Source: Cymodocea nodosa
Taxonomy: Eukaryota > Streptophyta > Magnoliopsida > Alismatales > Cymodoceaceae
Direction: 5' to 3'
NCBI GenBank assembly: GCA_036874045.1
Contig: CM072337.1
Span: 2,790,001-2,854,000 of the forward strand
Length of the DNA stretch: 64,000 bases
Shown one piece after another: positions 4,448 to 60,476 of this stretch. The position numbers and the translations under genes were made by a program. The number at the start of each line of letters is the position of its first letter. The first letter of the stretch is position 1. The notes under the pieces are model-generated. The model was not told the DNA's origin. It made no database searches and worked only from the letters and a program-made list of their open reading frames with translations.

Positions 4448-4471
4448 TTGTTGCTGTTACAACTTGCGACA

Positions 4472-6619: not shown

Positions 6620-6633
6620 AAAAAGGGGGAGAT
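6620..6633 (+). other. Polypurine tract of the Sirevirus element
   Basis: AAAAAGGGGGAGAT lies immediately 5' of the LTR start TGTTGAG. Such a tract primes plus-strand DNA synthesis in LTR retrotransposons. Confidence 0.8.
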
Positions 6634-6899
6634 TGTTGAGTATTTTTGTTTTGATGATGTGTGTTGAATGAAAATAATCATATTTGCTCAATTACTATTG
6701 CTTGTGAAAAGAAATTAAAATCATCAATTAATATAGAAAAAGCTTACTAATATAAATACTTGTCTGTATTGGATCTGAAGTTAATAACTAGTCGTTTCGT
6801 TGCATTAATTTCTCATTTAGCTAAACGTTATGTTTACGTGTGTTTTTATTGAAAAGCATGATATGTTTTAATGTTATATCTTCTGTATCATGAACAGTG

Positions 6900-7560: not shown

Positions 7561-7820
7561 AGTTATATATATATACTTGTGTTACTCGTTTACTTAACAT
7601 TAAAGTAACGACTTCTTATTACACTGATGAAAAATTTTTGGACGAGAAAGTTTATTTTTAGGAAATTTTTCAGAGATCCAGGACTGATTATTAAAGAAAA
7701 TTCGAAATGTAAACGTGGGTTAGAACGCGTGTGTTTCGATGAAGGAAAAAGAAAAGACGTGGAGAAGTGGAAAACTGGTAGTGGTTAAACGTGAAGGATA
7801 TGCATGAAATGAAGATACAG

Positions 7821-7827
7821 TATAAAA
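7821..7827 (+). promoter_or_regulatory. TATA box of the Sirevirus LTR
   Basis: TATAAAA followed about 30 bases later by the probable transcript start just before the stem-loops at 7854. It is the best TATA match in this LTR and lies in the expected U3/R position. Confidence 0.55.
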
Positions 7828-7853
7828 CGCATAGAGTTCTCGTTGATCAATTT

Positions 7854-7932
7854 ATCCTTGCACACAAAATGAAAAATCTTTACAAGGATCAAACCATCCC
7901 TGCACACCAAAAGAAAAATCTTTTTCAGGGAT
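7854..7932 (+). other. Two tandem stem-loops in the LTR 5' UTR
   Basis: Stem 1 pairs ATCCTTG (7854-7860) with CAAGGAT (7883-7889). Stem 2 pairs ATCCCTG (7896-7902) with CAGGGAT (7926-7932). The loops are similar (TGCACAC...GAAAAATCTTT) and the one stem difference is compensated on the other arm, which argues for selection on RNA structure. Further direct repeats around a GTGAAGCAT core follow at about 7978-8073. Confidence 0.6.
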
Positions 7933-8387
7933 CATAAACACCTCTTCGGGAAAAATCTCTCAAGTGGAAGAAAGTTCAGTGAAGCATAAAAAGGTAAGAT
8001 TTTCGTCACTAAAGATTTGAAGTATCAGAAGAAAGCAAATTCGGTGAAGCATGAAAGACAATATATTCGTCACTGAAGAATTACTGAAGAAGAAAAAGAA
8101 GAAGAAGAAAGATCTCAAACAGGGAGAAAAGTTTTAAATTCCGCAAATTAGTTTTCTCTGTTTGTAGTTATGAAATTGTTTAGATGATACATGGTATCAA
8201 AATATAATTGCATCTACAATTTATGAGGAGAATTGAATTGTATATTGTAATTGAAACCTTGAATAAAAATGATTTTATGAAAACAATGTCTCGACTTGTT
8301 TTTGTGTTTTAAAGTTTCAATTATATTTCAGAAAATATTAAAAATACACAATTCACCCCCCTCTTGTGTAGCCATACGATCCTACAG

Positions 8388-8942
8388 CTTCTCCACAACA
8401 TATTTGATTTAAACAATGAAGTAACAAAAATTTTGGAAGATACAACTGCAGTTGAATAGACTGAGCAGCAAATTAAGGATTATTTAGCTATCAATCCTGG
8501 TGTGCCATTATTAAATAGATTGAAGCATTTAAATGGTAAAGCACACATGGTAGCTAACATTCTGATTAAGAATGTCTATCAACGACAGGGCCATGACATA
8601 GAATTAAGTCAATTTGTCAAATGGGCCACGTATGCAATTGTAAATAAGATCTAAATAAATTGGTCTGCAGTTTTTATCTCCAAGTTGAAAACAGTGAAGA
8701 AGAAATTATTTTATGGAGATTTGATTCTACTGTTGATGGTGGATTGTATTGATTTCACTAAATGGACATCAAAAAGGATCAGATCTAAAACCATTTCAGT
8801 GAAAGAATATAGAAATTTTGTAGCTGCAGAATTAGCTGTACCTTCTAGAGAAATTACAGGAGCAGTAGAGAGGATAAATAAATTAGAGCAGCAATTAGAA
8901 AAACTCTAGAAGGAAGTAGATGAACTTAGGTATAAAGATTAA
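8388..8942 (+). pseudogene. ORF X, C-terminal part
   Basis: One frame from 8388 to the TAA at 8940-8942, stopped at 8457 (TAG), 8652 (TAA) and 8907 (TAG). It reads LAINPGVPLLNRL, FVKWATYAIVNK and LFYGDLILLLM, matching the second half of the env-like plant transposon protein domain, and ends in a short coiled coil (INKLEQQLEKL, then KEVDELRYKD). It complements the N-terminal half at 4472-6225 without overlap. Downstream it joins sequence shared with unit C, so ORF X appears to sit just upstream of the F-box cassette in at least this variant. Confidence 0.6.
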
Positions 8943-8955
8943 ATTGTATTGTTCG

Positions 8956-9326
8956 TCTACTTTTGTAAAATTGTATAGTGTACTTGTAATGTAATTGATT
9001 CATATTAATAAATATAATTTTTCAGATGCATTTTTCATACATGTTTGGATGTGAAATGAATGGAATTTATTGAATATTATGTAATTTGTGAAACTTTATG
9101 AATGAATATGTAACAGATTTACAATTTGCTGAATGACAGGATAACTGCTTAAAAATTTCTGCATGTTATAAGGTAAAATGTAAATTTTGCATAACATAAA
9201 ATGATCTGCAAGTTAAATCTTTATATAATGTTCAGATTTAAATGTATTTTAATCAAAATGAGGCATTAATGACATAGATTTAACTTTATTAGAGTTAGCA
9301 GAATGATAGAGAAAAAAAAAAAAAAA
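8956..9326 (+). other. Untranslated segment upstream of the leader, shared with unit C
   Basis: Matches the minus strand of 55380-55715 nearly base for base with small indels. It ends in a poly-A run (9311-9326), after which copy B also becomes homologous. No coding sequence is seen. In B and D this place is occupied by a minisatellite and integrase instead. Confidence 0.7.
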
Positions 9327-9370
9327 ACAGAATAGAAACGCTTATGAGAGTGAAGCTTAAAAGTTGCTAA

Positions 9371-9560
9371 GTGTTAACTCAACGAAGTAAGTCCGTTGAG
9401 TTAACCGTAACTCCACGAGGTCAGTAATATAATATAAGGTCACTCCGTTGAGTTATCTGTAACTCAACGAAGTTAGTCCGTGGAGTTAGCAACAGTAACC
9501 AACTGTGTTCCGTTGAGTAATCTGTAACTCAACGAGGTTAGTTCGTGGATTAAGCAGAAC
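9371..9560 (+). repeat. Array of imperfect palindromes in the leader of copy A
   Basis: Five or so units of the type AACTCAACGAAGT followed after a few bases by CCGTTGAGTTA; each can fold into a hairpin and each is also a DNA dyad. The same array occurs in the leaders of B (42055-42240) and C (55130-55340), before the F-box acceptor site, and in every LTR of the family. Confidence 0.8.
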
Positions 9561-9638
9561 AGTTATTCTTCTAACCACGAATGAAACTTTGTCGGTTTAA
9601 CGGTTACCTAAATTTGAAATTAGTAGTGGTACACGTAC

Positions 9639-9650
9639 CCATAAAAATAG
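9639..9650 (+). promoter_or_regulatory. Internal TATA-like box of the F-box cassette, copy A
   Basis: CCATAAAAATAG just after a GTACACGTAC motif. The equivalent in unit C is a perfect TATAAATAGG (55051-55060, minus). A start about 30 bases downstream would give a leader whose first ATGs are at 9704 and 9708. Confidence 0.45.
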
Positions 9651-9707
9651 GAACCACGATGCACGTTGCAAGACACATTCTTGCAACGAGATTTATTCAC
9701 TTTATGG

Positions 9708-11005
9708 ATGCGCAGTATATATATGAAACAGAATGTTATTTACGAGTTACCAGCACTTTTAAAAGAAAGGAGGAAGCGTTGGAGGAACTGGAAGGAGAAG
9801 CAGCTGATTCAACTTCATTTGACAACAAATATTTATAGAATGGAAAGCTTCAGACTGAATCGACAAATGAATTGATGCAATTACCATTGGATGCACTAAG
9901 GGAAGTACTAAGTAACTTGTCAACTAAAGATCTGTGCAGGCTGCGTTGTGTATCAAAGGAAATTAAAGACTGTATTGAAGAAAAATATTTTCAGGGACTA
10001 CAAGCTGCAAAAATGACTAAGATTAGAGATGGATTCATATGGAGGTCATTTAATCGTAGTTCAAATACCCATGAATATCTGGCTATGGAAGAAACTACTG
10101 GAATTCCACCCAATGCATTAGAAGGAATAAATCATATTATGGGGATAGATGAAGGATTAATTATATACAAGACGAGACCAAGGTATGCAAGTTTATCATT
10201 ACTTGATATTTTGATAAGAAATCCTATAACAGGAGAAGAATGGAATATAGGAAGACCTAATACATTTGAAGCACCAACTTAAAATTGTGGGTCAGCTTTA
10301 ATATTTTCTGATAAAAATTCTGCAATTCTTGAAAAATTATATTATTGGAGACATACAGGAAATTAGGGTGAAGATTTACGCTTAAGTGTGTATAATTTTC
10401 TGAACAGATCTTGGAATGAAAATATTATAATATATCTAGGACAGAAATCATTAATTAACCAAACACATGTCATACTTGATGGATATATTTATTTAGTCAC
10501 GGAGATATCAATAGCATATAGATCTGATTTATACATAGTGAGCATAGATAGTTGTGATGATTATATAGAAATTTTACCTATACCGAGTGAAATAGCTAAA
10601 CCACCATCTGCAAAATTTAATGAAATTCAAATAGGAATGCGGTATAATGAAGAAGATGATCCTACTTTATGTGTGATAAGATGGTGGGATGAACTGATGA
10701 AATTTCAAATATGGATTATGGAAGACATAAATGAATGGAAGTGGGAAGAGGAGTATATTGAAATAGATGTAGAAATAGAAACTACTACATTACCTTGGAA
10801 CCAAAAAGGATCCCTTTCTGCATTACATATCATTAATGGTAATACACTCGTATTTGGAATTTATAATATATTGCATGTTTACAAATTAAGAAGGAACAAG
10901 AACTGCATTAAAATAGAATTAATACCAAGAAGAACTATGCCTAAAAAGTTTGCTTGGACTGATACATTTATTCCATTTGTTTCTACTTTTCAATCATGTT
11001 CTTAA
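9708..11005 (+). pseudogene. Retroelement-borne F-box protein gene, intronless copy A
   Basis: Exon 1 (9708-9857) and the F-box exon (from 9858) are fused at exactly the splice sites visible in B and C. Exon 1 adds about 50 residues with a basic stretch (LKERRKRWRNWKEK). The F-box lies at 9875-10000 (LPLDALREVLSNLSTKDL, CRLRCVSKEIK); F-box proteins bind SKP1 and recruit substrates to SCF ubiquitin ligases. The rest resembles the F-box-associated beta-rich region of plant proteins, with IRNPITGEEWNIG and DELMKFQIWIM, and ends FVSTFQSCS with its stop at 11006-11008. Breaks: loss of one G near 9870, TAA at 10280-10282 (shared with B), TAG for Trp at 10363. The family product would be about 430 residues. 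It sits between leader and 3' UTR of an LTR element, the env position. Confidence 0.82.
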
Positions 11006-12780: not shown

Positions 12781-14840
12781 TGTTTAGAATGAAAAAGTGC
12801 ATATTATTAACGGTTAAATGATGGTTAATTGCACAATATTTAGCTTATCATATGAGAATTAAGCCATTATGTTATAATTGCACTGCTATATGCTTTAATT
12901 GAAGAATCTGCTTAATTTTGGGGAATTAATGTTAATTTAGTACATTTATGAACTGTCGGTAAGTTGCCGGCTGTGAAATTCTTAAGTTTCCAAATTTTCT
13001 GATATTTCGGACAGTTATGTTTAACATACCGAACAAATTAAGACAGTTATGTTTAATAGACCGAATATGTATCGGATAGTTTTGTTTAAATTACTGAATA
13101 GTTATGTTTTGAGAGAATATTTTATTATTTCCTAAAGTACGCATGTCGAAACCATAATAAATGACTTAAGTGAACTTTCGGTAAGTTAATTGTAACTATC
13201 CGAAATGCATTTGAGCATCGGATAGTTAAGTTTATAAGTATCCAAAATGCACATGAGCATCGGATAGTTAAATTTATGCACGTGTTGAATTTAAATGCTT
13301 TAGAATATCACGTGAGATGCACATGTTTAACTCGTTAAGTTAGCATAACTGTACGCATTGAGTTACATGAATATACACTAAGGTAACGCGTTATGTTAGC
13401 AGCTTATTTCTTTATTGCACGTGTTTTATAGTTAAATCAACGAAGAAAGTCCGTTGAGTTATCTGTAACTCCACGGACTATATATTTTCTAATATGCCAC
13501 TGTAGCAGTTGTAGGAACAAACAGTTGGAAGAGAAAAACCACGTTTGCACGTATCACACAGGAATTCAATCGTGTAGGGAGAAGGAAGCATCACCGTTGA
13601 TATGAATGAAGGAAATCCAACCAATCATTCAAGCAGAAGCAGTTACTACTGAAGAAATATAAAAGAAAAGAAGAAAAAAAGAAGAAAGGTGATCGATGGA
13701 CGAATAGTGTGTGCAGAGAAGGATGAGCGTCACAATTCTCTGAAGTACCACACCAACCACCATCATCACCACCATAATCACCAACCATCGGAGGTCTGTA
13801 AGGATACTTGTCTGATGTCGGGTCGATTCTGAGCAAAACACAATGCCTAACAACCACTATGAGGAGTGATCACGTCGCGGGAAGGGAAGCCATTTTCACC
13901 AAGCGCCAACTCATATTTCAGGAGATCGTAAAGCTTTTAGCCTTGGCTTCGGGTTGATGCCTGTATGCTGAAGAGGAGATCATCTTGCAATTCTGGACTC
14001 GCGATTCTATAAGGAGAGGAAACAGAATTGTAAGTGGTTTAATTTTCAATGGTGTAATCGCGTTGCAAGTAGTGTCGGAAGTATTTACTGTCAAGTGAGA
14101 TTACTTTACATTTCACCTTTCGCCCATTTCCATGTTCACATCAAAACAAAAATACCAAAAACAATTTATCTTTGTTTGTATGTTGTATTTGAGTGTTATA
14201 TTGTTTGTGTTGTATCGTGATTAATGTTATCTGTATCAGTTTTGTGATTGTTTTATGTTAGTTTTAATTTTACAGTTTACTGAAATTGGTTCGTATAAAA
14301 GACTTAAAGATTTTAATGGTTACAGTTTGAATCACCTGAATGTTAGTATTGCTTAATGATAAATCCAATGTTAACTAGCATTAAAAAGTTTAATTGATGT
14401 TATTTACAATATGTGGAATCGCCTAATGGTTGGCTGAATTCCTCTGTAAATAGCAATATTATAAAAAAGAGACAAGCTAGTGGAGTTAACTTAAGTCCAC
14501 AAGGATAGTCCGTTGAGTTAGCCATAACTCAACGAACTTTGTCCGTTGAGTTAACTGTAATTCAACGAAGTGCTTATTGAATATAAATTTGAATTGTTAA
14601 CAATCAAACAGTTCTTAAATTTATCAGCAATTCCCTGTGGGATCGACCTGTACTTACACACTGATACAATAGATACTATGTACTTGCAGTTAAAGTACAA
14701 ATTGGAATTAATATCTAAATTGTATTAAAGGTTGTTTGTTTACTTCTAAAAGAAAGAATAGGCATAAAGATAAATTAACTAAGTAAAAATAAAAGTAACA
14801 AATCCACGTTTTTCTAGTGTAGTGCTAGGAAAACCAAATA
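12781..14840 (+). repeat. Ty3-type LTR, copy A
   Basis: Begins TGTTTAGAATG and ends GGAAAACCAAATA, versus GGGAAAACCCAAACA in B. Homologous over its length to the LTRs at 35295-37244, 44287-46238 and 55716-57562 (all minus). It contains the shared CACGTG/GCGTTGAGTT block (13305-13430), GTAACTATCCGAAA repeats, palindromes (13430-13490, 14480-14575) and a TATA box. The CA end appears mutated to TA. Confidence 0.88.
13658..13665 (+). promoter_or_regulatory. LTR core promoter TATA box, copy A
   Basis: TATAAAAG, kept at the equivalent place in the B LTRs (36487-36494 and 45480-45487, minus). It divides U3 from the transcribed R/U5 part. Confidence 0.6.
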
Positions 14841-27020: not shown

Positions 27021-27046
27021 CTCCCAAGTGATGGCCTTTTTTTCAC

Positions 27047-35294: not shown

Positions 35295-37244
35295 TGTTTG
35301 GGTTTTCCCAGCACTACACTAGAAAAACTTGGATTTGCTACTTCTATTTTTACTTAGTTAATTTATCTTTATGCCTATTCTTTCTTTTAGAAGTAAATAA
35401 ACAACCTTTAATACAATTTAGATATTAATTCCAATTTGTACTTTAACTGCAAGTGCACAGTGTCTATTGTATCAATGTGCAAGTACAGGTCGACCCATAG
35501 GGAATTGCTGACGAATTTAAGAAATGTTTGATTGTGAACAATTCAAATTTATATTCCATAAGCACTCCGTTGAGTTACAATTAACTCAACAGACTAAGTT
35601 CGTTGAGTTATGGCTAACTCAACGGACTATCCTCGTGGACTTAAGTTAACTCCATGAGCCTGTCTCTTCTTTATAATACTGCTATTTACAGAGAAATTCG
35701 GTCAACCATTGGGCGATTCCACAGATTGTAAATAACATCAATTAAGCTTTTTAATGCTAATTAACATTGGATTTATCATTGAGCAATACTAACATTTAGA
35801 TGATTCAAACAGTCACCATTAAAATCTTTAAGTTTTTTGTACGAACCAATTTTAGTAAACTATAAAATTAAAACTAACATAAACAATCATAAAATTGATA
35901 CAGATAACATTAATCACGATACAACACAAACAATACAACACTCAAATACAACATACAAACAAAGATAAATTGTTTTTGGTATTTTTGTTTTGATGTAAAC
36001 ATGGAAATGGGCAAAAGGTGAAATGTAAAGTAATCTCACTTGACAGTAAATACTTCCGACACTACTTACAATCCGATTACACCACTGAAAATTAAACCAC
36101 TTACAATTTTGTCTCCTCTCCCTATAGAATCGCGAGTCCAGAATTGCAAGATGATCTCCTTTTCAGCATACAGGCATCAACCCGAAGCCAAGGCTAAAAG
36201 CTTTACGATCTCTTGAAAAATGAGTCGGCGCTTGGTGAAAATGTCTTCCCTTCTCGCGATGCGATCACTCCTCACAGTGGTTGTCAGGCACTATGTTTGG
36301 CTCGGAATCGACCCAACATTAGGCAAGTATCCTCACAGGCCTCCAATGATTGGTGATTATGGTGGTGATACGATGGTTGGTGTGATACTTCAGAGAATCG
36401 CCGATATTGTCTGTAGAAAGCTCGGTGCTCCTCCTCTGTATACACTACCGTCCATCGATCACACTTTCTTCTTTTTTTCTTCTTTTCTTTTATATTTATT
36501 TAGTAGTAACTTCTTCTACTTGAATGATCGGTTGGATTTCCTTCCTTCAGATCAACGGCGATGCTTCCTTCTCCATGCGCGATTGCATTCCTACGTGATA
36601 CGTGCAAACGTGGTTTTTCCTTCCAACTATCTATTCCTACAACCGCTACAGTGGCATTTTAGAAAATAACTATAAAATACATGCAATAAAGAAATAAGCC
36701 GCTAACCTAACGCGTTACCTTAGTGTATATTCATGTAACTCAACGCGTGTAGTTATACTAACTTAACGAGTTAAACATGTACATCTCACGTGATATTCTA
36801 AAGCATTTAAATTCAACACGTGCATAAAATACATGCAATAAAGAAAAAACTGCTAACCTAACGCGTTACCTTAGTGTATATTCATGTAACTCAACGTGTA
36901 CAGTTATGCTAACTTAACGAGTTATAACTTAAGTAAATCTACCAGCTCTCGACACGTGTCAGCAACAGTTTAAACATAAAATAACATTTCAGAGAGTTAC
37001 AGGTCTAACTATCCGATGCTCAGATGCATTTTCAGATACTTAAGAATTTCACAGCCTGCAACTTACTAACAGTTCATAAATGTACTAAATTAACATTAAT
37101 TCCCCAAAATTAAGCAGATTCTTCAACTAAAGCACATAATAACGCAATTATAACATAATGGCTTAATTCTCATATGATAAGCTAAATATTATGCAATTAA
37201 CCATCATTTAACCGTTAATAATATGCACTTTTTCATTCTAAACA
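35295..37244 (-). repeat. 3' LTR of copy B
   Basis: On the minus strand TGTTTAGAATG...GGGAAAACCCAAACA, 1950 bases, close to the 5' LTR at 44287-46238. Palindromes at 35560-35660 (on the plus strand, GTTGAGTTATGGCTAACTC). TATA box 36487-36494 (minus). The shared ACGTG/CTAACGCGTT block is tandemly duplicated (36695-36800 and 36825-36925). Confidence 0.93.
36220..36669 (+). other. Antisense open frame (149 codons) inside the LTR of B
   Basis: Opposite to element transcription and spanning the probable transcript start. The same 149-codon frame is open in the other B LTR (45213-45662); D has a shortened version (56625-56915) and A a frameshifted one (13857-13591, minus). Reads MSRRLVKM, TVVVRHYVWL and PPMIGDYGGDTMVG. 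No family recognised. Conservation may reflect only the recent age of the LTRs. Confidence 0.3.
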
Positions 37245-37260
37245 CTTCCCCCATACCTAA
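37245..37260 (-). other. Polypurine tract of copy B
   Basis: Minus strand TTAGGTATGGGGGAAG directly before the 3' LTR. Confidence 0.85.
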
Positions 37261-39050
37261 TTTTTGCTAGTCCCTTAGCAAACTAAGATCTAATTAATTG
37301 GTCTTTCAAAATGTGCTAGAATTAATTCTTCCCCTTTTGTTTTTTTTTTCTTCTGTTTAGCATAAACATATATTTTGTATGTTTCAGTAATCAACTTGCA
37401 AAGATATTTAGAATATATGTAAATTACATACAAAGTATATCATCTTCATATAGGTGTTAATTATATTATCGTTTGTTCTTCTTTTCATCATCTGTAATCT
37501 TGAATTTTCTAATAAGTTTTCTAGAAGAAATTTCAACAACATACAAATCAAAGTACAATTCAATTCAATCTGATTAAGACAAGTAGAATAAAGAATTGTA
37601 TTTCCATTAAACAACTTCAAAAGTCAATTCCAGATTCATATTTTAGTAATTCTAGATAACAGAAAATATACTCGATTCATAAGATATCTGTATTTCACAA
37701 AACGCTTGTATCTTTTTAGAATAGTATATGCTTTTTTTCTTTTTCTTTTTTTTTGTTTTTTTTTCTTTTTTTTGTGCACTTTAAAAGTTAATTTGACAAG
37801 CTTGAATCATACAAGATCTTTCTAATGTACCCATGTAACGAGCTTTCAGTCAACAATCCCAAATCTGATCAGGATCTTAGGTTGCCAGATTTTCAGAGTC
37901 CTTTTTCAGGTCAACAATCCTTACATACCTATCTGCTCAAGTACAAAAGGCTCGTGATCAAACAAGTCAATAAACTCTCAAAGTTTTTTTTTTTTTCTTT
38001 TTTCTTTTTTCCTTTTTTTTTTTCTAAAAATAAATGCACACACAAAATAAAGCATTAATCACATACTGTATATGCACGTATTTCATTAATACAGATGCAG
38101 TAAAACACCAATCTCATATAATCCTACTTCTATCATTTACTAAAATATGAATCCATAACAATAAGCTCATACTTTATCTATAGTTTAATAAGATCTACAC
38201 ATAAATCATTCTACAAGTTAAATCAGTCAAAGTAAATGTATCTTTCATCATATGTGTTTCATTTAATCTAGAATTCACATCTCAGCTCCTTCAGGACTTT
38301 AGATAATTTTCTGATTAAGCATTAAATATTCTGATTTCATTTTAAAATCGTGAAACAGTTAAACTCATGAAATTCAGAAAAATCATAAGATACTATATCT
38401 AGATTTACATAAATAATAAATTCTATAGCATCTTCTATAGCATTCTAAATATAACATTCAAGCAGTTTATAAAAATTTTACAGTCTCAATTATCGGATAA
38501 TTACAGCAAGTTCATAAAAATTTTCAATTTCCTCAAAACTTTGCAGTACCATTTTAATTCCTTTAATTAACAAACTTACATGGCTGTTACTTTAATTACC
38601 TCCCCCCCATACCTACATTTTGCATTGTCCTTAATGTAAAAGATTTGACAATAAGTACAGTAATTGTAGCAGGCATGAATAAAGTTTTGTTTGATTTAAA
38701 ATTCAGGATAAGTAATTGGTTGCATACCTTGTTCCATTTGTATCTCTTTCTGCATATTTCGATTTTTGATTCTGAAAAACTTTTCATTCCCAGATAAATA
38801 CAGAATATAAAACAAAATAACATTTAACAGATATTAATAAATCAGTGTCTTGTGTTGAACCCATGCTCCTATGCCTTTGGTGGCTCACAAGCAAGCCAGT
38901 TGGTTTCCTAGAACAAATACCAACAAACTGGATTGATATTTTGTTTTGTTTGTTTTTTTTATAAAATGAACATGAAAAACTTCAAAATTCCATTTTTTTT
39001 TTTCTAGAAATAAATGCAGAATACACACGCTAAACACACAAAATCACAGC
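37261..39050 (-). other. 3' UTR of copy B
   Basis: Homologous to 11009-12764 and 57579-59323. Holds T-rich runs (37730-37770, 37985-38025), the second purine tract (38600-38615) and the stretch shared with copia at 3060-3960. A 75-codon frame at 38823-38596 is kept from copy A. Confidence 0.7.
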
Positions 39051-40199
39051 TTAAGAACATGATTGAAAAGTAGAAACAAATGGAATAAATGTATTAGTCC
39101 AAGCAAACTTTTTAGGCATAATTCTTCTTGCTATTAATTCTGTTTTAATGCAGTTCTTGTTCCTTTTTAATTTGTATACATGCAAAATATTATAAATTCC
39201 AAATACGAGTGTATTACCATTAATGATATGTAATGCAGAAAGGGATCCTTTTTGGTTCCAAGGTAATGCAGTAGTTTCTATTTCTACCTCTATTTCAATA
39301 TACTCCTCTTCCCACTTCCATTCATTCATGTCTTCCATAATCCATATTTGAAATTTCATCAGTTCATCCCACCATCTTATCAGACATAAAGTAGGATCAT
39401 CTTATTCATTATACCACATTCCTATTTGAATTTCATTAAATTCTACAGATGGTGGTTTAGCTATTTCACTCGGTACAGGTAAAATTTCTATATAATCATC
39501 ATAACTGTCTATGCTCACTATGTATAAATCAGATCTATATGCTAATGATATCTCCGTGACTAAATATATATATCCATCAAGTATGACATGCGTTTGGTTA
39601 ATTAATGATTTCTGTCCTAGATATATTATAATGTTTTCATTCCAAGATCTGTTCAGAAAATTATATACACTTAAGCGTAAATCTTCACCCCAATTTCCTG
39701 TAGGTCTCCAATAATATAATTTTTCAGGAATTGCAGAATTTTTATCAGAAAATATTAAAGTTGACCCACAATTTTAAGTTGGTGCTTCAAATATATTAGG
39801 CCTTCCTATATTCCATTCTTCTCTTGTTATAGGATTTCTTATCAAAATATTAGGTAATGATAAACTTGCATACCTTGGTCTCGTCTTGTATATGATTAAT
39901 CCTTCATCTATCCCCATAATATGACTCATTCCTTCTAATGCATTGGGTGGAATTCCAGTAGTTTCTTCCATAGCCAGATATTCATGGGTATTTGAACTAC
40001 GATTAAATGATCTCCATATGAATCCATCTCTAATCTTAGTTATTTTTGCAGCTTGTAGTCCTTGAAAATATTTTTCTTCAATACAATCTTTAATTTCCTT
40101 TGATACACAACACAGCTTGCACAGATCTTTAGCTGACAAGTTACTTAGTATTTCCCTTAGTGCATCCAATGGTAATTGCATTAATTCCATTTGTCCATT
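39051..40199 (-). pseudogene. F-box protein gene, copy B (exon 2)
   Basis: Follows a clear acceptor (TTTTATTTTATAG at 40212-40200, minus). Exon 2 starts AATGGACAAATGG and is in frame with exon 1's ATGGAAAGC (MESFRLNGQMEL). F-box LPLDALREILSNLSAKDL, then the beta-rich C-terminal region ending FVSTFQSCS. Stops at 39774-39776 (Glu codon to TAA, shared with A but GAA in D) and 39402-39404 (Glu to TAA). F-box proteins act as substrate receptors of SCF E3 ligases; the target here is unknown. About 380 codons in this exon. Confidence 0.85.
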
Positions 40200-40249
40200 C
40201 TATAAAATAAAAACAAAAATTTAGCAGAGACAAAAATTAACATAACTAC

Positions 40250-40325
40250 TGCACACCCTCGTGGAGTTAAGGCATAACTCAACGGACTAAGTTCGTTGAG
40301 TTAAAAATTAACTCTACGATACTAT
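40250..40325 (-). repeat. Palindromes near the intron 3' end, copy B
   Basis: AACTCAACGGACTAAGTTCGTTGAGTT-type dyad and CTCGTGGAGTTA, also kept in C (53340-53405) and D (60535-60600). They lie just upstream of the acceptor and could affect splicing or act as an enhancer. Confidence 0.7.
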
Positions 40326-40329
40326 TAAC

Positions 40330-41721
40330 TTAAAATAAAACATATATACATACAAATAGTTGCTTCAGATATGCTACTTCATTCAGCTGCCCTCCTAGAA
40401 GAGGTATCAATTTCATTAACTGTTCTATTGATAGGATTAGATATAGCTTGTATTGGCAATCCTCTAGTAGGTCTAACTTCCATTGGTTCCTTCTATCTAA
40501 GTGATATATTTCTATTCTGATTTTGATTTGCAGCATTTCCAAATATAAATTCTAGACAATTGTTTACTTGTTGGATTATCTTTTCTAATTTCTTTATTCT
40601 AGCTACTTGTTCAATTAATACTTCATAACTTATGTTCTTCTCATTTATATTTTCTCCTCCCTAGAAATTGTTGTTTCTCCAAGATAAATTCGGGTGATTT
40701 TTCCAATTAGGATTATAAGAATTTCCCAAGCTATCTCTTTGGTTCTAGCATAAATAATATCTAAGTCATTTATGTTTGTATTCTTTTCTGCTAGCTTTTG
40801 ATTTAATGATAACTCTTCTATTTTCTTTGTTAATTCATTTAATTTCACCTCAAGCATAGTATTGGAATCTATTTCATGCATTCCTCTTGGCAATAATCTT
40901 TTATTTGCAATAGCTTCAGCCGAATTTTCCCACTATGCAGTTCTTTTTGCAAAATTTTCTAAATATGCTCATGCTTCTTCACTACATAATTTTAAAAATC
41001 CATTTTGACAAGTAGATTCTAATAAAGATTTCGTTGAAACATCTATGCCTTCATAAATTATACCTATTAATTGTGCTTTGCTCATTGCATGATGTGGACA
41101 TTGAGTCAGTAAATCTTTAAATCTTTCAAAATATTTCCAGAATGATTCACCCTATTTTTGGCTACACATTAATATTTCTTTCTTCTTTTTAATCGTTTGA
41201 TGTGTTGCATAGTATTTTTCCAGAAAAATAGAGCAAAATTCAGTCCATGTAGAAATTGAATCAGGTGATAGAGTATATAACCATCTCTTAGCTGTATCTT
41301 TTAAAGCAAAAGAGATATATCTAAGTTTAATAGCATCTATACTCATGTTCGGCATTCTCATCATTTGACAAAGTTCGTTAAATTCTCTAAGGAAATAATA
41401 GGCATCCTCTCTTTCTAATCCATGAAAATGTGGCAATTGACTAATATAATTAGATTTCAGTTCAAACCTATCTCCCTCAAAGTTTGGCAATCGAATACAT
41501 GAAGGTTCATCAATTAATTCAGGATACATAATTTCTCCTAATGGTTTTTCTACTGGAGTAGTCATCTCTACGTTCTCTTTTAAAGAAAGGTTAGCTACAC
41601 CCCAAATAATTTCGTTAAAGTTCAGTTCAGAAAATTTTTCAATACTCCTCTGCAATGAAAATTCCTGGGTAGGTGTTCTTACTAATCGTTTAGTACTTAG
41701 AGAACGAGTCCATGTACTCAT
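40330..41721 (-). pseudogene. Ty3 gag (capsid) ORF lying 3' of integrase, copy B
   Basis: ATG at 41721, 24 bases after the splice donor ends. It reads like the plant Athila-type gag: LPNFEGDRFELKSNYIS, DAYYFLREFNELC, IKLRYISFALKDTAKRWLY, STWTEFCSIFLEKYY, then RFKDLLTQCPHH, a coiled region and NPNWRNHPNLSW. The zinc knuckle expected in gag is absent here; it is in the ORF at 43780-44237 instead. Broken by TAG at 41152-41154 and 40933-40935 (both Gln codons, both shared with C, the second also with D), a TGA for Trp near 40970 and a frameshift near 40750. Gag forms the particle that packages the RNA. Confidence 0.85.
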
Positions 41722-41750
41722 AAACAAATAGCAGAAGATTAATTACATAC

Positions 41751-42285
41751 CAGTCTGAAGCTTTCCATTCTATAAATATTTGTTGTCGGATGAAGGTTGA
41801 ATCAGCTGCTTCTCCTTCCAGTTCCTCCAACGCTTTCTCCTTTCTTTTAAAAGTGCTGGTAACTCGTAAATAACATTCTGTTTCATATATATACTACACA
41901 TCCATAAAGTGAATAAATCTCGTTGCAAGAACGTGACTTGCAAGGTGCATTGTGGTTCCTGTTTTTATGGGTACGTGTACCACTACTAATTTCAAATTTT
42001 GGTAACCGCTAAACCAACAAAGTTTCGTTTGTGGTTAAAAGAATAACTGTTCTGCTTAATCCACGAACTAACCTCATTGAGTTATAGATTACTCAACATA
42101 ACACAGTCGGTTACTGTTGCTAACTCCACAGACTAACTTCGTTGAGTTACAGATAACTCAAAGGAGTGACCTTATATTATATTACTAACCTTGTGGAGTT
42201 ACGGTTAACTCAACGGACTTACTTCGTTCAGTTAACTCTTGGCAACATCTAAGTTTCACTCTCGTAAGTTTTCTATTCTCTTTTT
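41751..42285 (-). other. Leader and exon 1 of the capsid/F-box cassette, copy B
   Basis: Runs from palindromes (42240-42055) past a TATA-like CCATAAAAACAGG (about 41968) to exon 1 (about 41908-41751). The exon 1 frame that is open in A and C has a one-base insertion here. The exon ends CTTCAGACTG at the donor. Confidence 0.7.
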
Positions 42286-42630
42286 TTACCGGTTTAACCG
42301 ATACTATGCTTCGGTCAGACCTAAATATTTTTTATTTTTTTTATTTTTCTTTCGGTTGAACCGATACTATGTTTCGGTCAAACCTAAATATTTTTTATTT
42401 TTTTTTACTTTTCTTTCGGTTGAACCGATACTATGTTTCGGTAAAACCAATATTTTTTTCTGAAAATTAATATACAATTTTTTTTTTCAGTTTAACCGAT
42501 ACTATGCTTCGGTCAGACCTAAATATTTTTTATTTTTTTATTTTTCTTTCGGTTGGACCGATACTATGTTTCGGTAAAACCAATATTTTTTAATGTTCCG
42601 GTCATACCGATGGATCCAATCGGTTGAACC
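42285..42630 (-). repeat. Minisatellite with a CGGTTgAACCG core, copy B
   Basis: Five units of about 60-75 bases, each with CGGTTTAACCGATACTATG, TTCGGTCAGACC and an A/T-rich spacer. A shorter array is in D at 61340-61610. The core is itself a palindrome. Confidence 0.85.
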
Positions 42631-42734
42631 GCAACTATTTTTATGTTTTATATATATTTTTAATATATATATATTTTTTTATAAATAAATAAACATAAAA
42701 ACTGATTTCTTACTAAATAAAGCTCGAGTAGGCC

Positions 42735-43778
42735 TCTACTCTAACTTCTTCTATAATTCGAAAGGAGCTTTTTGGTGTTTTCAGAATAGGTTTAAGTCTG
42801 TCCATTTACTTTAAATATATTCTGATTTTTAGGATTTTCAATTTCAATAGCTCTATAAGGATAAACATTTCGAACTATGTAAGGTCTTACCCATCTAGAT
42901 CTTAATTTTCCTAGATGGTTATGGAGTCTAGCCAGATAAAGATATACTTCTTGTCCTATTTCAAAGCTTTTAGGAATAATTTTTCTATCATGCCAGAATT
43001 TAATTTTCTCTTTTTCTCTTACAGTCTTCGAATAAGCTTCATTTCTAAATTCTTCTAATTCAATTAGTTGCATTTTCCTATTTTCAACAGCTTGATTTAA
43101 ATTAGTGTTCAGAGTTTTTAATGCCTAATAAGCTTTATGTTCTATTTCAGTAGGTAAATGACAACTTTTTCCATATACTAGCCTAAAAGGTGACATACCT
43201 AAGCTCGTTTTATAAGCAGTTCTATAAGCCCAAAGTGCATCTATCAATCTATTAGCCGAATCTGTTCTAGTAGGATTTACTACTTTTTCCAAGATTAATT
43301 TAATTTGTTTGTTTGCACTTTCTACTTGTCCACTTGTTTGCGGATGATATGATGTTGCAATTTTATGGTTTACTCCATATTTCTTCATTAAGGCTTCAAA
43401 ACTTCTATTACAGAAATGAGTTCCTCTATCACTAATAATAGCTTTAGGTATTCCAAATCTGGCAAATATATTTGTTCTTATAAATTGTATTACCACTTTG
43501 TTATCATTAGTTTTTGTAGAAATAGCTTCTATCCATTTAGATACATAATCCACCCCCAACAATATGTAATTAAATTGATTAGACATAGGAAATAGACCTA
43601 TAAAATTTATTCCTCGTACATCAAAGATTTCAACCTCAACAATAGGATTAAGAGGCATCATATTCCTCTTTGATATTCTTCCTATTTGTTGACATCTTAA
43701 ACAACTTAAGCAATATTCATGAGCATCTTTAAATAGTGTTGGCCAATAAAACCCACATTGCAGAATTTTTGCAGTAGT
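42735..43778 (-). pseudogene. Ty3 integrase, copy B
   Basis: Zinc module partly kept (CLSCLRCQ), catalytic core with [26 protein letters not shown] and [12 protein letters not shown], then the C-terminal DNA-binding part (KIKFWHDRKII, FEIGQEVYLY, LRSRWVRPYIV). The first catalytic Asp, normally in GIDF, is Asn (G-to-A). The element's closest form is Athila-like plant Ty3. It is fused at about 43778 to the 5' zinc-knuckle ORF by a deletion that removed protease, RT and RNase H. A TAG at about 43124 separates the C-terminal part. Confidence 0.88.
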
Positions 43779-44237
43779 TTTCTTTATGGCTTTTTCAGTT
43801 TCGTAAATTATATCCTGTTTAGGTTCTGAATATGCCTCCTTATAGTTTAACCGGTTGACTTCTTGTTGTTGACACACAAAGTATTCCAGTTTGTCTAGAT
43901 TTTGCTCTATACTATGCTCCAGTCTATCATAACTATCCCAAACTTCAATGTCTCTCATCATATTACACATTCTATACTGACCATCAGTTGGGTAAACTAT
44001 AGGATTCTCATACTCAGCTCTATTATATTGAGGATAATTCATTTGTTGTTCATGGGATCTAACAATATGTAAATGTCTCAATTTCAAACAATCAGAAATG
44101 TCGTGTCCTTCAGAATTGCAGAATTCACATATGCTAATTAAAGGTTTCAAAAATCTTTGAGCATAAGCATATGCCATATTCTCAATTACAAAAGAAAACA
44201 CACAACTCTGGCTATTAAAACGAAACAACTCTAACAG
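43779..44237 (-). pseudogene. 5' zinc-knuckle ORF (nucleocapsid-like), copy B
   Basis: Begins within about 50 bases of the primer site. It has [14 protein letters not shown] (CX2CX4HX4C) near residue 34, [16 protein letters not shown], then a helical [16 protein letters not shown]. This looks like the C-terminal half of a plant Ty3 gag without its capsid half. The same start and order are found in D (63657-63106), where protease follows. Confidence 0.8.
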
Positions 44238-44260
44238 TTACTTATATTAATTCAATTCAA

Positions 44261-44279
44261 TTCCCCAGCAACGGCGCTA
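44261..44279 (-). other. Primer binding site of copy B (tRNA-Asp type)
   Basis: Minus strand TAGCGCCGTTGCTGGGGAA, two changes from TGGCGCCGTTGCCGGGGA, the site complementary to the tRNA-Asp 3' end in many plant Ty3 elements. It lies 7 bases from the 5' LTR. Confidence 0.85.
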
Positions 44280-44286
44280 TAAAACT

Positions 44287-46238
44287 TGTTTGGGTTTTCC
44301 CAACACTACACTAGAAAAACTTGGATTTGTTACTTCTATTTTTACTTAGTTAATTTATCTTTATGTCTATTCTTTCTTTTAGAAGTAAACAAACAACCTT
44401 TAATACAATTTAGATATTAATTCCAATTTGTACTTTAACTGCAAGTGCACAGTGTCTATTGTATTAGTGTGCAAGTACAGGTCGATCCCACAGGGAATTG
44501 CTGACGAATTTAAGAAATGTTCGATTGTGAACAATTCAAATTTATATTCCATAAGCACTCCGTTGAGTTATAATTAACTCAACGGACTAAGTTCGTTGAG
44601 TTATAGTTAACTCAACGGACTATCCTTGTGGACTTAAGTTAACTCCACGAGCCTATCTCTTCTTTATAATACTGCTATTTACAAAGGAATTCGGCCAACC
44701 ATTGGGCAATTCCACAAATTGTAAATAACATCAATTAAGCTTTTTAATGCTAATTAACATTGGATTTATCATTAAGCAATACTAACATTCAGATGATTCA
44801 AATAGTCACCATTAAAATCTTTAAGTTTTTTGTACGAACCAATTTCAATAAACTGTAAAATTAAAACTAACATAAACAATCATAAAACTGATACAAATAA
44901 CATTAATCACGATACAACACAAACAATACAACACTCAAATACAACATACAAACAAAGATAAATTGTTTTTGGTATTTTTGTTTTGATGTGAACATGGAAA
45001 TGTGCGAAAGGTGAAATGTAAAGTAATCTCAATTGACAGTAAATACTTCTGACACTACTTGCAATGCGATTACACCATTGAAAATTAAACCACTTACAAT
45101 TTTGTCTCCTCTCCCTATAGAATCGCGAGTCCAGAATTGCAAGATGATCTCCTTTTCAGCATATAGGCATCAGCCCGAAGCCAAGGCTAAAAGCTTTACG
45201 ATCTCTTGAAATATGAGTCGACGCTTGGTGAAAATGTCTTCTCTTCCCGCAACGCGATCACTCCTCACAGTGGTTGTCAGGCACTATGTTTGGCTCAGAA
45301 TCGACCCGACATCAGGCAAGTATCCTCATAGACTTCTGATTATTGGTGATTATGGTGGTGATACAATGGTTGGTGTGATACTTCGTAGAATCGCCGATAC
45401 TGTCTGCAGAAAGCTCGGTACTCCTCCTCTATATACATTGTCGTCCATCGATCACACTTTATTCTTTTTTTCTTCTTTTCTTTTATATTTCTTAAGTAGT
45501 AACTACTTCTGTTTGAATGATCAGTTGGATTTCCTTCCTTCAGATCAACGGCGATGCTTCCTTCTCCATACGCGATTGCATTCCTGTGTGATACGTGCAA
45601 ATGTGGTTTTTCCTTCCAACTGTCTGTTCCTGCAACCGCTACAGTGGCATTTTAGAAAATAACTATAAAATACATGCAATAAAGAAATAAGCCGCTAACC
45701 TAACGTGTTACCTTAGTGTATATTCATGTAACTCAACGCGTGTAGTTATACTAACTTAACGAGTTAAGCATGTGCATCTCACGTGATATTCTAAAGCATT
45801 TAAATTCAACACGTGCATAAAATACATGCAATAAAGAAATAAGCCGCTAACCTAACGCGTTACCTTAGTGTATATTCATATAACTCAACGCGTACAGTTA
45901 TGCTAACTTAACGAGTTATAACTTAAGTAAATCCACCAGCTCTCGACACGTGCCAGTAGTAGTTTAAACATAAAATAACATTTCAGAGAGTTACAGGTCT
46001 AACTATCCAATGCTCAGATGCATTTTCGGATACTTAAGAATTTCACAGCCTGCAACTTACTGACAATTCATAAATGTACTAAATTAACATTAATTCCCCA
46101 AAATTAAGCAGATTCTTCAATTAAAGCATATAACAGTGCAATTATAACATAATGGCTTAATTCTCATATGATAAGCTAAATATTATGCAATTAACCATCA
46201 TTTAACCGTTAATAATATGCACTTTTTCATTCTAAACA
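44287..46238 (-). repeat. 5' LTR of copy B
   Basis: 1952 bases, minus strand TGTTTAGAATG...AACCCAAACA, with palindromes (44555-44655), TATA box (45480-45487, minus), an antisense open frame 45213-45662 and the duplicated CTAACGCGTT block (45690-45925). Confidence 0.93.
45213..45662 (+). other. Antisense open frame (149 codons) in the 5' LTR of B
   Basis: Same frame as 36220-36669, reading MSRRLVKM, with several amino-acid differences and no stop. Coding status unknown. Confidence 0.3.
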
Positions 46239-52950: not shown

Positions 52951-53078
52951 TGTGAAAAAACATTTTAACTCATTCAATAAATTTTCCTACAATTGTATGT
53001 TTAATATGGTGATGATGGATCTAACAATCTTTGTATATATTCTTCTCCTTCTGTGTTATATATGCGAGTGGTGGATGT

Positions 53079-53286
53079 TTGAACTACGATTAAATGATCT
53101 CCATATGAATCCATCTCTAATCTTAGTCATTTTTGCAGCTTGTAGTCCTTGAAAATATTTTTCTTCAATACAGTCTTTAATTTCCTTTGATACACAACAT
53201 AGTATGCACAGATCTTTAGCTAACAAGTTACTTAATACTTCCCTTAGTGCATCCATTGGTAATTGCATCAATTCCATTTGTCGATT
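53079..53286 (-). pseudogene. F-box gene, unit C (truncated exon 2)
   Basis: After the acceptor TTATACAG the exon reads ATGGAATTGATGCAATTACC and encodes the F-box (LPMDALREVLSNLLAKDLC, CVSKEIKDCIEEKYF) up to WRSFNRSSN, where homology ends. Only the SKP1-binding half remains. Confidence 0.85.
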
Positions 53287-54844
53287 CTGTATAACACAAA
53301 CAAAAATTTAGTAAAGACAAAAATTAACATAACTACTGCACACCCTCGTGGAGTTAAGGCATAACTCAACGGACTAAGTTCATTGAGTTAAAAATTAACT
53401 CTACGATACTATTAACTAAAAATAAAAAAAAAACATATATACATATAGATAGTTGCTTCAGATATGCTACTTCATTCAGCTGCCCTCCCAGAAGAGGTAT
53501 CAATTTCATTAACCATTCTATTGACAGGATTAGGTATAGCTTGTATTGGCAATCCTCGAGTAGGTCTAACTTCCATTGGTTCCTTCTGTCTAAGTGATAT
53601 ATTTCTATTCTAATTTTGAATTGCAGCATTTCCAAATATAAATTCTAGACAATTATTTACTTGTTAGATTATCTTTTCTAATTTTTTTATTCTAGCTCCT
53701 TGTTCAATTAATACTTCATAACTTATGTTTTTCTCATTTATATTTTCTCCTCCTTGGAAATTGTTGTTTCTCCAAGATAAATTTGGGTGATTTCTCCAAT
53801 TAGGATTATAAGAATTTCCCAAGTTATCTCTCTGGTTTCTAACATAAATAATATCTAAGTCATTTATGTTTGCATTCTTTTCTGCTAGCTTTTGATTTAA
53901 TGATAACTCTTCTATTTTCTTTGTTAATTCATTTAATTTTACTTCAAGCATAGTATTGAAATTTATTTCATGCATTCCTCTTGGTAATATTTTTTTATCT
54001 ACAATAGCTTCAGCCGAATTTTCCCACTATGCAGTTCTTTTTGCAAAATTTTCTAAATATGCCCATGCTTCTTCACTACATAATTTTAAAAATCCATTTT
54101 GACAAGTAGATTCTAATAAAGATTTCATTGAAACATCTATGCCTTCATAAATTATACCTATTAATTATGCTTTACTCATTGCATGATGTGGACATTGAGT
54201 TAGTAAATCTTTAAATCTTTCAAAATATTTTCAGAATGATTCACCCTATTTTTGGCTACACATTAATATTTCTTTCTTCTTTTTAATCGTTTGATGTGTT
54301 GGATAATATTTTTCCAGAAAAACAAAGCAAAATTCAGTCTATGTAGAAATTGAATCAGGCGATAGAGTATATAATTATCTCTTAGCTGTGTCTTTTAAAG
54401 AAAAAGGAATATATCTAAGTTTAATAGCATCTATACTCATGTTCAGCATTTTCATCATTTGACAAACTTCGTTAAATTCTCTAAGGAAATAATAGGCATC
54501 CTTTCTTTCTAATCCATGAAAATGTGGCAATTGACTAATATAATTAGATTTCAGTTCAAACCTATCTCCCTTAAAGTTTGGTAATTGAATACATTAAGGT
54601 TCATCAACTAATTCAGGATACAAAATCTCTCCTAATGGTTTTTCTACTGGAGCAACCATCTCTACGTTCTCTTTTAATGAAAGGTTAGCTACAACCCAAG
54701 GAATTTCTTTAAAGTTTAGTTCAGAAAATTTTTCAGTACTCCTCTGCAATGAAAATTCCTGGGTAGGTGTTCTTACTAATTGTTTAGTGCTTAGAGAATG
54801 AGTCCATGTGCTCATAAATAAATAGCAGAAGATTAATTACATAC
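53287..54844 (-). other. Intron of the F-box transcript, unit C
   Basis: GTATGT donor (54844-54839) and TTATACAG acceptor, 1558 bases; the same boundaries as in B and those removed in A. Confidence 0.85.
53640..54815 (-). pseudogene. Ty3 gag (capsid) ORF, unit C
   Basis: ATG at 54815 (MSTWTHSLSTKQLV). Same protein as in B, through FELKSNYIS, FCFVFLEKYYP and NPNWRNHPNLSWRNN. Stops include TAG at 54246-54248 and 54027-54029 shared with B, plus a TGA for Trp near 54234. No zinc knuckle. Confidence 0.82.
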
Positions 54845-55380
54845 TAGTCTAAAGCTTTCCATTCTATAAATATTTGTTGTCGGATGAAGTTGAATCAGCT
54901 GTTTCTCCTTCCAGTTCCTCCAACACCTTCTCCTTTCTTTTAAAAGTGCTGGTAACTCGTAAATAACATTCTCTTTTATATATATACTGCGCATCCATAA
55001 AGTGAATAAATCTCGTTCCAAGAACGTGTCTTGCAACGTGCATCGTAGTTCCTATTTATATGGGTATGTGTACCACTACTAATTTCAAATTTTGGTAACC
55101 ACTAAACCGACGAAGCTTCGTTCGTGGTTAAAAGAATAACCATTCTGCTTAATATATGAACTAACCTCATTGAGTTACAGAAAACTCAACAGAATACAGT
55201 CGGTTACTGTTGCTAACTCCACGGACTAACTTCGTTGAGTTACAGATAACTCAACGGAGTGACTTTATATTATATTACTGAACTCGTGGAGTTACGTTTA
55301 ACTCAACAGACTTACTTCATTGAGTTAACACTTAGCAACAACTAAGTTTTACTCTCGTAAGTTCCTCTCTGTTCTTCTTT
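54845..55380 (-). other. Leader and exon 1 of the cassette, unit C
   Basis: Palindrome array at 55340-55130, then TATAAATAGG (55060-55051) and exon 1. From the ATG at about 54994 exon 1 is open to the donor (MRSIYIKENVIYELPALL, then KERRRCWRNWKEKQ, MESFRL), in frame with the F-box exon. Confidence 0.72.
55051..55060 (-). promoter_or_regulatory. Internal TATA box of the capsid/F-box cassette, unit C
   Basis: TATAAATAGG, a perfect plant TATA box, about 30-60 bases before exon 1 ATGs and downstream of the palindrome array and a GTGGTACAC motif. It suggests the cassette is driven separately from the LTR. Confidence 0.55.
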
Positions 55381-55715
55381 TATTGTTTATTCTGCTAACT
55401 GAAATAAAGTTAAATTTATGTCATTAATGCATCATTCTAATTAAAATACGTTTAAATCTGAGCATTATATAAAGATTTAACTTGCAGGTCATTTTATGTT
55501 ATGCAGAATTTACATTTTACCTTATAACATGCAGAAATTTTTAAGCAGTTATCTTGTTATTCAGCAAATTGTAAATCTGTTACATATTCATTCATAAAGT
55601 TTCACAATAACATAATATTCAATAATATCCATTCATTTCACATTCAAAACACGTATGAAAATTGCATCTGAAAAATTTACATTCATTAATATGAATCAAT
55701 TACATTAAAAGTACA

Positions 55716-59323: not shown

Positions 59324-60476
59324 TTAAGAACATGATTGAAAAGTAGAAACAAATGGAATAAATGTATCAGTCCAAGCAAACTTTTTAGGCATAATTCTTC
59401 TTGCTATTAATTCTGTTTTAATGCAGTTCTTGTTCCTTTTTAATTTGTAAACATGCAATATATTATAAATTCCAAATACGAGTGTATTACCATTAATGAT
59501 ATGTAATGCAGAAAGGGATCCTTTTTGGTTCCAAGGTAATGTAGCAATTTCTATTTCTACATCTATTTCAATATACTCCTCTTCCCACTTCCATTCATTC
59601 ATGTCTTCCATAATCCATATTTGAAATTTCATCAGTTCATCCCACCATCTTATCAGACATAAAGTAGGATCATCTTCTTCATTATACCACATTCCTATTT
59701 GAATTTCATTAAATTCTGCAGATGGTGGTTTAGCTATTTCACTCGGTACAGGTAAAATTTCTATATAACCATCATAACTGTCTATGCTTACTATGTATAA
59801 ATTAGATCTTTATGCTAATGATATCTCCGTGACTAAATAGATATAACCATCAAGTATGACATGTGTTTGGTTAATTAATGATTTCTGTCCTAGATATATT
59901 ATAATGTTTTCATTCCGAGATCTGTTCAAAAAATTATACACACTTAAGCGTAAATCTTCACCCCAATTTCCTGTAGGTCTCCAATAATATAATTTTTCAG
60001 GAATTGCTGAATTTTTATCAGAAAATATTAAAGTTGACCCACAATTTTCAATTGGTGTTTCAAATATATTAGGTCTTCCTATATTCCATTCTTCTCCTGT
60101 TATAAGATTTCTTATCAAAATATCAGGTAATGATAAACTTGCAAACCTTGGTCTCGTCTTGTATATGGTTAATCCTTCATCTATCCCCATAATATGACTC
60201 ATTCCTTCTAATGAATGCATTGGGTGGAATTCCAGTAGTTTCTTCCATAGCCAGATATTCATGGGTATTTGAACTACGATTAAATGATCTCCATATGAAT
60301 CCATCTCTATTCTTAGTTATTTTTGCAGCTTGTAGTCCCTGAAAATATTTTTCTTCAATACAGTCTTTAATTTCCTTTGATACATAACACAGCCTGCACA
60401 GATCTTTAGCTGACAAGTTACTTAGTATTTCCCTTTGTGCATCCAACGGTAATTGCATCAATTCCATTTGTCGATT
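59324..60476 (-). pseudogene. F-box protein gene, copy D (exon 2)
   Basis: Acceptor TTTTATTTTACAG at 60489-60477. F-box LPLDAQREILSNLSAKDL, then the C-terminal region to FVSTFQSCS. Breaks: a small insertion near 60210 shifts the frame, and a TAA lies near 59808. The Glu codon that is TAA in A and B is intact here (GAA near 60050). Least damaged of the copies in its middle part. Confidence 0.85.

Follow-up and report, generated by a model that had tools for sequence, protein, structure and literature searches.

Copies of a Ty3-type LTR retrotransposon that lack precisely a capsid-bearing intron very probably descend from spliced RNA

Among the retrotransposon copies in a 64,000-nucleotide stretch of Cymodocea nodosa DNA (C5:2790001-2854000, referred to here as the window), one, copy A, lacks exactly the segment that carries the capsid frame in copies B and C. 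This raises the question of whether copy A was made from a spliced RNA. As an earlier note on the window had claimed, exon 1 of copy A is joined directly to exon 2 (Table 1); the family joint is also written AAAGCTTCAGACTG/AATCGACAAATG. A 26-mer spanning the joint occurred once in the window and in none of 100 shuffles (up to three mismatches). A 28-mer covering exon 1 and the donor was found in the window only in copy B (41737-41764, no mismatches) and copy C (54831-54858, two mismatches), and in 0 of 100 window shuffles with up to three mismatches. The same flanks are separated in B and C by about 1.55 kb, also as claimed; both introns start with GTATGT and finish with a T-rich stretch followed by ATAG or ACAG. 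The bases common to both ends of the missing segment number one in B and none in C, and a direct repeat therefore does not account for the deletion. Exon 2 starts with AATCGAC in A, C and element D, and with AATGGAC in B. Element D has lost exon 1 and the donor through a deletion with different ends, running from the repeats before the module to the middle of the intron. A hairpin that folds better than shuffled sequence lies about 60-120 bases before the acceptor in B, C and D, with z-scores of -3.15, -2.02 and -3.72 respectively; the numbers of shuffles folding as well were 0, 6 and 0 of 200. This hairpin, and the ACTCAACG-type inverted repeats in the upstream part of the copy A 3′ module, before exon 1, may be modulators of splicing.

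Table 1. Features of copies A, B and C and element D (window positions unless marked C5)
Feature	Position	Strand	Remarks
Copy A, presumed 5′ LTR	C5:2779050-2780388		outside the window, ~19.5 kb before the joint
Copy A, upstream part of 3′ module	8979..9839	+	common with C; from 9321 with B too
Copy A, TATA-like box	9716-9724	+	within upstream part of 3′ module
Copy A, exon 1 coding part	9840..9857	+	ATG + 5 codons, phase 0
Copy A, exon 1-exon 2 joint	9857..9858	+	CTTCAGACTG/AATCGACAAATG
Copy A, exon 2	9858..11005	+	F-box protein frame, 10367-11005 open
Copy A, 3′ LTR	12781..14840	+	TGTTTAGAAT...; polypurine tract (PPT) AGGTATGGGGGAAG just before
Copy B, unspliced LTR element	35295..46238	-	large part of pol deleted
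Copy B, 3′ LTR	35295-37244	-	
Copy B, exon 2	39051..40199	-	F-box frame with stops
Copy B, intron	41750..40200	-	1551 bp, GTATGTAATT...TTTATTTTATAG; also given as GTATGT...TTTTATAG
Copy B, capsid ORF (Retrotrans_gag) inside intron	41152..41721	-	first ATG to first stop
Copy B, upstream part of 3′ module + exon 1	41751..42287	-	
Copy B, 5′ ORF	43125..44237	-	zinc-knuckle part of gag without capsid, then integrase (rve, H2C2)
Copy B, PBS	44262-44279	-	
Copy B, 5′ LTR	44287-46238	-	
Copy C, truncated exon 2	53072..53286	-	
Copy C, intron	54844..53287	-	1558 bp, GTATGTAATT...TGTGTTATACAG; also given as GTATGT...TTATACAG; capsid frame with stops
Copy C, upstream part + exon 1	54845..55715	-	ends at 3′ LTR of element D (55715/55716)
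Element D, exon 2	59324..60476	-	F-box frame, broken
Element D, intron 3′ part + acceptor (TTTTACAG)	60477-61346	-	acceptor side only kept

The members of this family have the order LTR, PBS, nucleocapsid-only ORF, protease, RT/RNase H, integrase, repeats, 3′ module, PPT and LTR, the 3′ module being an F-box gene whose 1.55-kb intron holds the capsid ORF. Copy B has both PBS and PPT, LTRs of about 1.95 kb, and flanks (GTCAG and GTCAA) identical at four of five bases. We take its PBS to be of the tRNA-Asp type and, from the resemblance of the gag and PBS letters, presume that the lineage is Athila/Tat (OTA). The 5′ LTR assigned to copy A is presumed from the order of the parts and from 387 aligned LTR bases (K2P 0.071); other elements have apparently inserted between it and the joint. 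Self-similar repeats lie between integrase and the 3′ module (42269-42591 and 61343-61575), and their length varies among copies.

A zinc knuckle was present at the 5′ end of all six fetched elements examined (L015, L017, L019, L025, L027 and L029), as it is in B and D, and a capsid search of the fetched DNA gave no match beside it; in L015, 162 bases separate the LTR end from the zinc knuckle. The unspliced counterpart L029+L016 contains the zinc knuckle, protease and integrase regions, the capsid intron and exon 2. In these copies gag is divided: a zinc-knuckle nucleocapsid comes directly after the PBS, and the capsid, where present, lies in an intron after integrase. Plant Ty3/gypsy elements, in the part of the review drawn on here, have the order GAG-PROT-RT-RH-INT, with GAG first (PMC6317226). 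The present family has the two LTRs, the PBS, the PPT and the order PROT-RT-RH-INT, and does not have a capsid upstream of PROT. As the 5′ zinc knuckle stands without a capsid and the capsid follows integrase, the capsid appears from the sequence to have been relocated from its usual first place into the intron, an unusual gene order for a Ty3 element.

The segment missing from A had been described as the capsid ORF. The ORF in the B intron matched Pfam Retrotrans_gag, the capsid part of gag, with an E value of 1.6e-7, above the cut-off. Its first ATG is 29 bases into the intron, and the frame continues beyond in-frame TAGs. The same frame, interrupted by stops, was found in the C intron (87% alike) and in the genomic copy L016/L029. 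In all four copies covering the position (the introns of B, C and D, and L016), a TAG occupies the identical place in the capsid frame (KRTA*WENS); this stop was either inherited or arose repeatedly through decay of a CAG.

The exon 2 product matched the Pfam F-box domain (E 1e-11 for the N-terminal stretch in the copy A frame, and 8.4e-11 for L008, both above the cut-off), and its C-terminal half gave a weak match to FBA_1 (E 0.016, below the cut-off). Exon 1 joins the F-box frame in phase in the spliced copy L008; in copy A the exon 2 frame is disrupted by a frame-shifting loss shortly after the joint. Read in unspliced RNA, the exon 1 ATG would start a frame of nine codons, closed by a stop ahead of the capsid ATG. 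The element anatomy fits a scheme, likely the use to which the arrangement is put, in which the unspliced RNA would serve as the capsid message and the spliced RNA as the F-box message. The resemblance to retroviral gag/env splicing drawn in the earlier note is a loose one: here the intron removed is the capsid, downstream of integrase. Comparison of the F-box frame of a diverged copy with nine others gave dN/dS values of 0.405-0.499, and the full frame of 381-382 codons was kept in 6 of 30 spliced exon-2 sequences. These values suggest moderate constraint mixed with decay, and therefore that the F-box protein was probably useful to the element. The even distribution of variable sites over codon positions (110, 113 and 112) in 25 mostly young exon-2 copies counts against such a use. 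Viral F-box proteins that disarm RNA silencing exist (polerovirus P0), and a silencing role of the element protein, by analogy, is only a lead.

If A arose through splicing, the earlier note had reasoned, several genomic copies should lack precisely the intron, and their deletion ends should not vary. Searches covered the 374.6-Mb assembly with 28-mers and up to three mismatches. The exon 1-exon 2 joint was found at 207 places and the exon 1-donor joint at 3507, both counts being lower bounds; reversed-pattern controls for the two joints gave 0 and 0. Spliced joints thus make up 5.6% (207/3714). The exact 22-mer of the A joint occurs at 80 places, and together these exact and near joints rule out copy A as a one-off.

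Exact exon-1 ends of the TTTATAGAATGG class number 458 genome-wide, and 369 of them continue into GTATG. Among the matches listed, 100 such ends were followed by the donor in 74 cases, by exon 2 in 21 (a joint match with 0 or 1 mismatch) and by neither in 5. Deletion ends are therefore not scattered, and the varied ends that were to count against splicing were not seen. The five remaining ends may represent mutated donor or spliced joints, or other joints. Deletions with other ends do exist, in element D and inside the intron of the diverged L020 copy. The TTTATTGAATGG class, which is basal in trees as far as sampled, has 14 spliced and 176 unspliced joints; spliced copies are present in both exon-1 classes.

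Nine spliced loci were mapped with their flanks. All nine have LTRs, with a PPT before the 3′ LTR. Two, L015/L016 and L019/L020, are whole elements with an LTR at each end; L017/L018 and L025/L026 likewise reach from one LTR to the other, with part of the 5′ LTR fetched, and the other five seem to be interrupted, within the range fetched, by elements nested in them or lying next to them. The order in the first four is zinc-knuckle ORF, protease region, a gap at the RT position, integrase, module, 3′ UTR and LTR, and PBS, zinc knuckle and PPT were present in all of them. A capsid search inside these four elements gave no match; the capsid matches found in L016 and L020 lie in adjacent elements. 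A Pfam scan for RT covered L017 and L015, and detected RT and RNase H in L017 (with protease at E 2.6e-4, below the cut-off) and RNase H and integrase in L015.

For two spliced elements the sequence on either side was read. L019/L020 has a 5-bp target duplication, with GTCAT next to the 5′ LTR and ATCAT next to the 3′ LTR (four of five bases alike), and its insertion point splits exon 2 of the diverged intron-bearing copy. The flanks of L015/L016 do not match, and this element has no target duplication. No poly(A) was found after the 3′ LTR in any of eight flanks of spliced copies. Since the spliced copies are LTR elements, with a target duplication in one of two, the proposal that spliced RNA was copied back together with its LTR is supported, as is integration of these copies as LTR elements. 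K2P values for pairs of whole LTRs were 0.035 (L015/L016) and 0.062 (L019/L020) for spliced elements and 0.054 for the unspliced copy B, and for fetched LTR parts 0.038 (L017/L018) and 0.048 (L025/L026). Spliced and unspliced elements therefore seem to have moved at broadly similar times.

We consider it very probable that copy A descends from spliced RNA of a Ty3-type LTR retrotransposon that was reverse-transcribed and integrated, probably repeatedly, to give capsid-less daughters. Judging from the DNA, some of the genomic RNA would lose the capsid intron to the spliceosome. That intron lies inside the element, close to the 3′ end, and its removal would leave both RNA ends and the priming sites in place, so that the family machinery could still copy and integrate the molecule. 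The spliced RNA would be packaged with capsid from unspliced copies, and capsid-less daughters such as A would depend on the capsid of their unspliced relatives. This copying probably recurred in several sublineages, to judge from a tree with five unspliced copies. The stops in the capsid frames of B, C and L016/L029, the acceptor of the diverged copy and the unmatched flanks of L015/L016 weigh against this explanation.

In the diverged copy, L020/L019, exon 1 is followed by GTATGT, and some of the capsid frame is present along with exon 2. It is 87-88% identical to the other copies over exon 2, 82-84% over the promoter part and about 81% over the intron, which has undergone an internal deletion; the sequence at the acceptor is now ACAA. 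This copy served as the outgroup, chosen by its divergence and not from an outside species. In trees rooted on it, which hold five unspliced copies in all, of thousands, spliced and unspliced copies interleave. A single spliced clade was rejected both for the upstream part (881 columns, 26 spliced and 4 unspliced copies, p 2.2e-7) and for exon 2 (26 spliced and 4 unspliced, p 1.8e-5). Rearranged or short rows were pruned from these sets (6 of 36 upstream; 5 of 35 in exon 2, including C with 215 bases). The unpruned sets of 36, 35 and 37 rows agreed, with p values of 1.0e-6, 1.2e-6 and, for both parts together, 9.6e-11; L049 supplies no exon 2.

Smaller sets bear on the main rival, according to which one loss event, by splicing or deletion, gave rise to a capsid-less subfamily that was amplified by ordinary transposition, the nested intron-bearing copies having got the intron back through a switch of template between RNAs packaged together. 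When B and C were compared with 23 young spliced copies in the upstream part, one clade was still rejected (p 0.0017). It was not rejected for B and D against 23 spliced copies in exon 2 (p 0.31), or when the diverged copy and L029 were set against 26 spliced copies, with B and C left out (p 0.37). These weaker rejections leave room for one early loss followed by recombination that restored the intron in B, C and D. The same rival gains from close sister relationships among some spliced copies in the exon-2 tree (L002, L003, L007 and L046) and from the higher spliced share in the TTTATAGAATGG class than in the TTTATTGAATGG class, the former figure being for exon-1 ends among the matches listed. 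Against it stand the rejections by the full sets and the excess of intron-bearing over spliced joints, about 17 to 1 at up to three mismatches. Several independent losses are the simplest reading of these data, and we regard a single loss as unlikely. In one spliced copy (L036:1511-3021), exon 2 breaks off at position 618 and is followed directly by a diverged intron-bearing fragment, a sign of recombination between copies.

Could the intron-less state instead be ancestral, the capsid segment having been inserted later? Copy A without the segment and the unusual position of the capsid would fit such an insertion. However, the diverged copy has the segment at the same place, starting with GTATGT, and the duplicated bases at the segment ends number only 0-1. 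Because the more divergent copy carries it, the intron looks ancestral, and we consider later insertion very improbable. Slightly more improbable still is precise deletion at the DNA level, by slippage or microhomology repair without an RNA step. Ordinary deletions do occur in the family, but those in D and in the diverged L020 intron have different ends from the spliced joints, which at 207 places end exactly at the intron GT and AG with 0-1 shared base in B and C. Although intron-less retrocopies are typical of LINE activity, there is next to no likelihood that the spliced copies are LINE-made processed pseudogenes, as they end in an LTR after the PPT with no poly(A) in eight of eight flanks, and four of them have a PBS and a 5′ LTR, one with the 5-bp duplication.

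The descent of copy A from spliced RNA may form part of a wider arrangement, which we put forward tentatively and at rather less than an even chance. The family would be a split-gag element, with the nucleocapsid at the 5′ end with pol and the capsid in a retained intron belonging to an F-box gene at the 3′ end, a gene that has its own TATA-like promoter. One splicing decision would switch between capsid and F-box protein, and the same splice on full-length RNA would steadily make a capsid-less self-competitor, copied in trans and now present in hundreds of copies.

The nearest known mechanism, in the parts of the papers on which this comparison draws, is the SD′ RNA of MLV and its splice-associated retroelement, SDARE (PMC2925334). 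That case differs in concerning an infectious retrovirus and another splice (PMC2925334); here a plant genome keeps a record of 207 places, and the intron removed is the capsid ORF. The nearest genomic pattern is that of the LINE-1 SpIREs (spliced integrated retrotransposed elements), genomic copies that likewise record splicing of the element RNA, although LINE-1 is a non-LTR element (PMC5860798). The spliced copies are a minority in both, SpIREs making up about 2% of full-length LINE-1 and spliced joints 207 of 3714 here; SpIREs are reported to be evolutionary dead ends, with transcription about 30-fold lower (PMC5860798). Like spliced retrocopies of the SDARE/SpIRE kind, the present copies lack precisely the GT-AG intron of their relatives, and they have LTRs and, in one of two, a target duplication.

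The nearest ecology is that of BARE-1 and BARE-2, where a plant LTR element has a Gag-less subfamily packaged in trans and partial RNA splicing raises Gag output (PMC3735527). BARE-2 lost Gag through an 8-bp deletion of the start codon, and replication there is ascribed to unspliced transcripts alone (PMC3735527); in the present family it is the spliced RNA that appears to have undergone replication. The four copies without a capsid match inside them keep PBS and PPT, and may be Gag-less parasites of the BARE-2 kind. According to the section of the BARE paper drawn on, spliced RNA has to be kept from being packaged and integrated (PMC3735527); the present family looks like a counter-example to this exclusion, about 200 genomic joints keeping a record of apparently replicated spliced RNA in a plant family. 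Ogre and Bagy-2 are likewise plant Ty3/gypsy elements with partial splicing, in Bagy-2 for env, and neither is described, in the portions of the sources used, with a capsid in an intron downstream of integrase (PMC6317226, PMC3735527, PMC7264820).

In a literature search with subscription journals largely outside its range, we found, among the matches listed, no description of an F-box-bearing LTR retrotransposon or of intron-less LTR-retrotransposon copies of this kind; nor did that search return an element with gag placed after pol. This absence is weak evidence that the arrangement is new. With its capsid in an intron and next to an F-box gene, the family is a natural test case for the interplay among capsid dosage, splicing and capsid-less copies.

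The DNA around copy A contains further repeats. Region 3167-8386 was considered as part of copy A and rejected: parts of it are found elsewhere at other positions and in both orientations, and it therefore looks like a nested element. This separate repeat, with an ORF at 4412-5860, lies beside or inside family copies, and parts of it also occur in L009, L011, L013, L021, L023, L027 and L032; its segment 3167-3955 is 71-77% like the family 3′ UTR. A second extra ORF precedes the F-box module (window 8386-8978; L011:8042-8839) and gave a weak Pfam match to Transposase_32 (E 8e-6, below the cut-off). The 3′ modules vary because this ORF is mostly missing in L013, L015 and L019. Exons at 19904-21448 and 26295-27053 presumably belong to host genes, resembling by eye a DEAD-box helicase and an RsgA-type GTPase. 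Copy A is flanked on both sides by the same segment (1-872 and 15058-15925), 92% alike and copia-like by eye.
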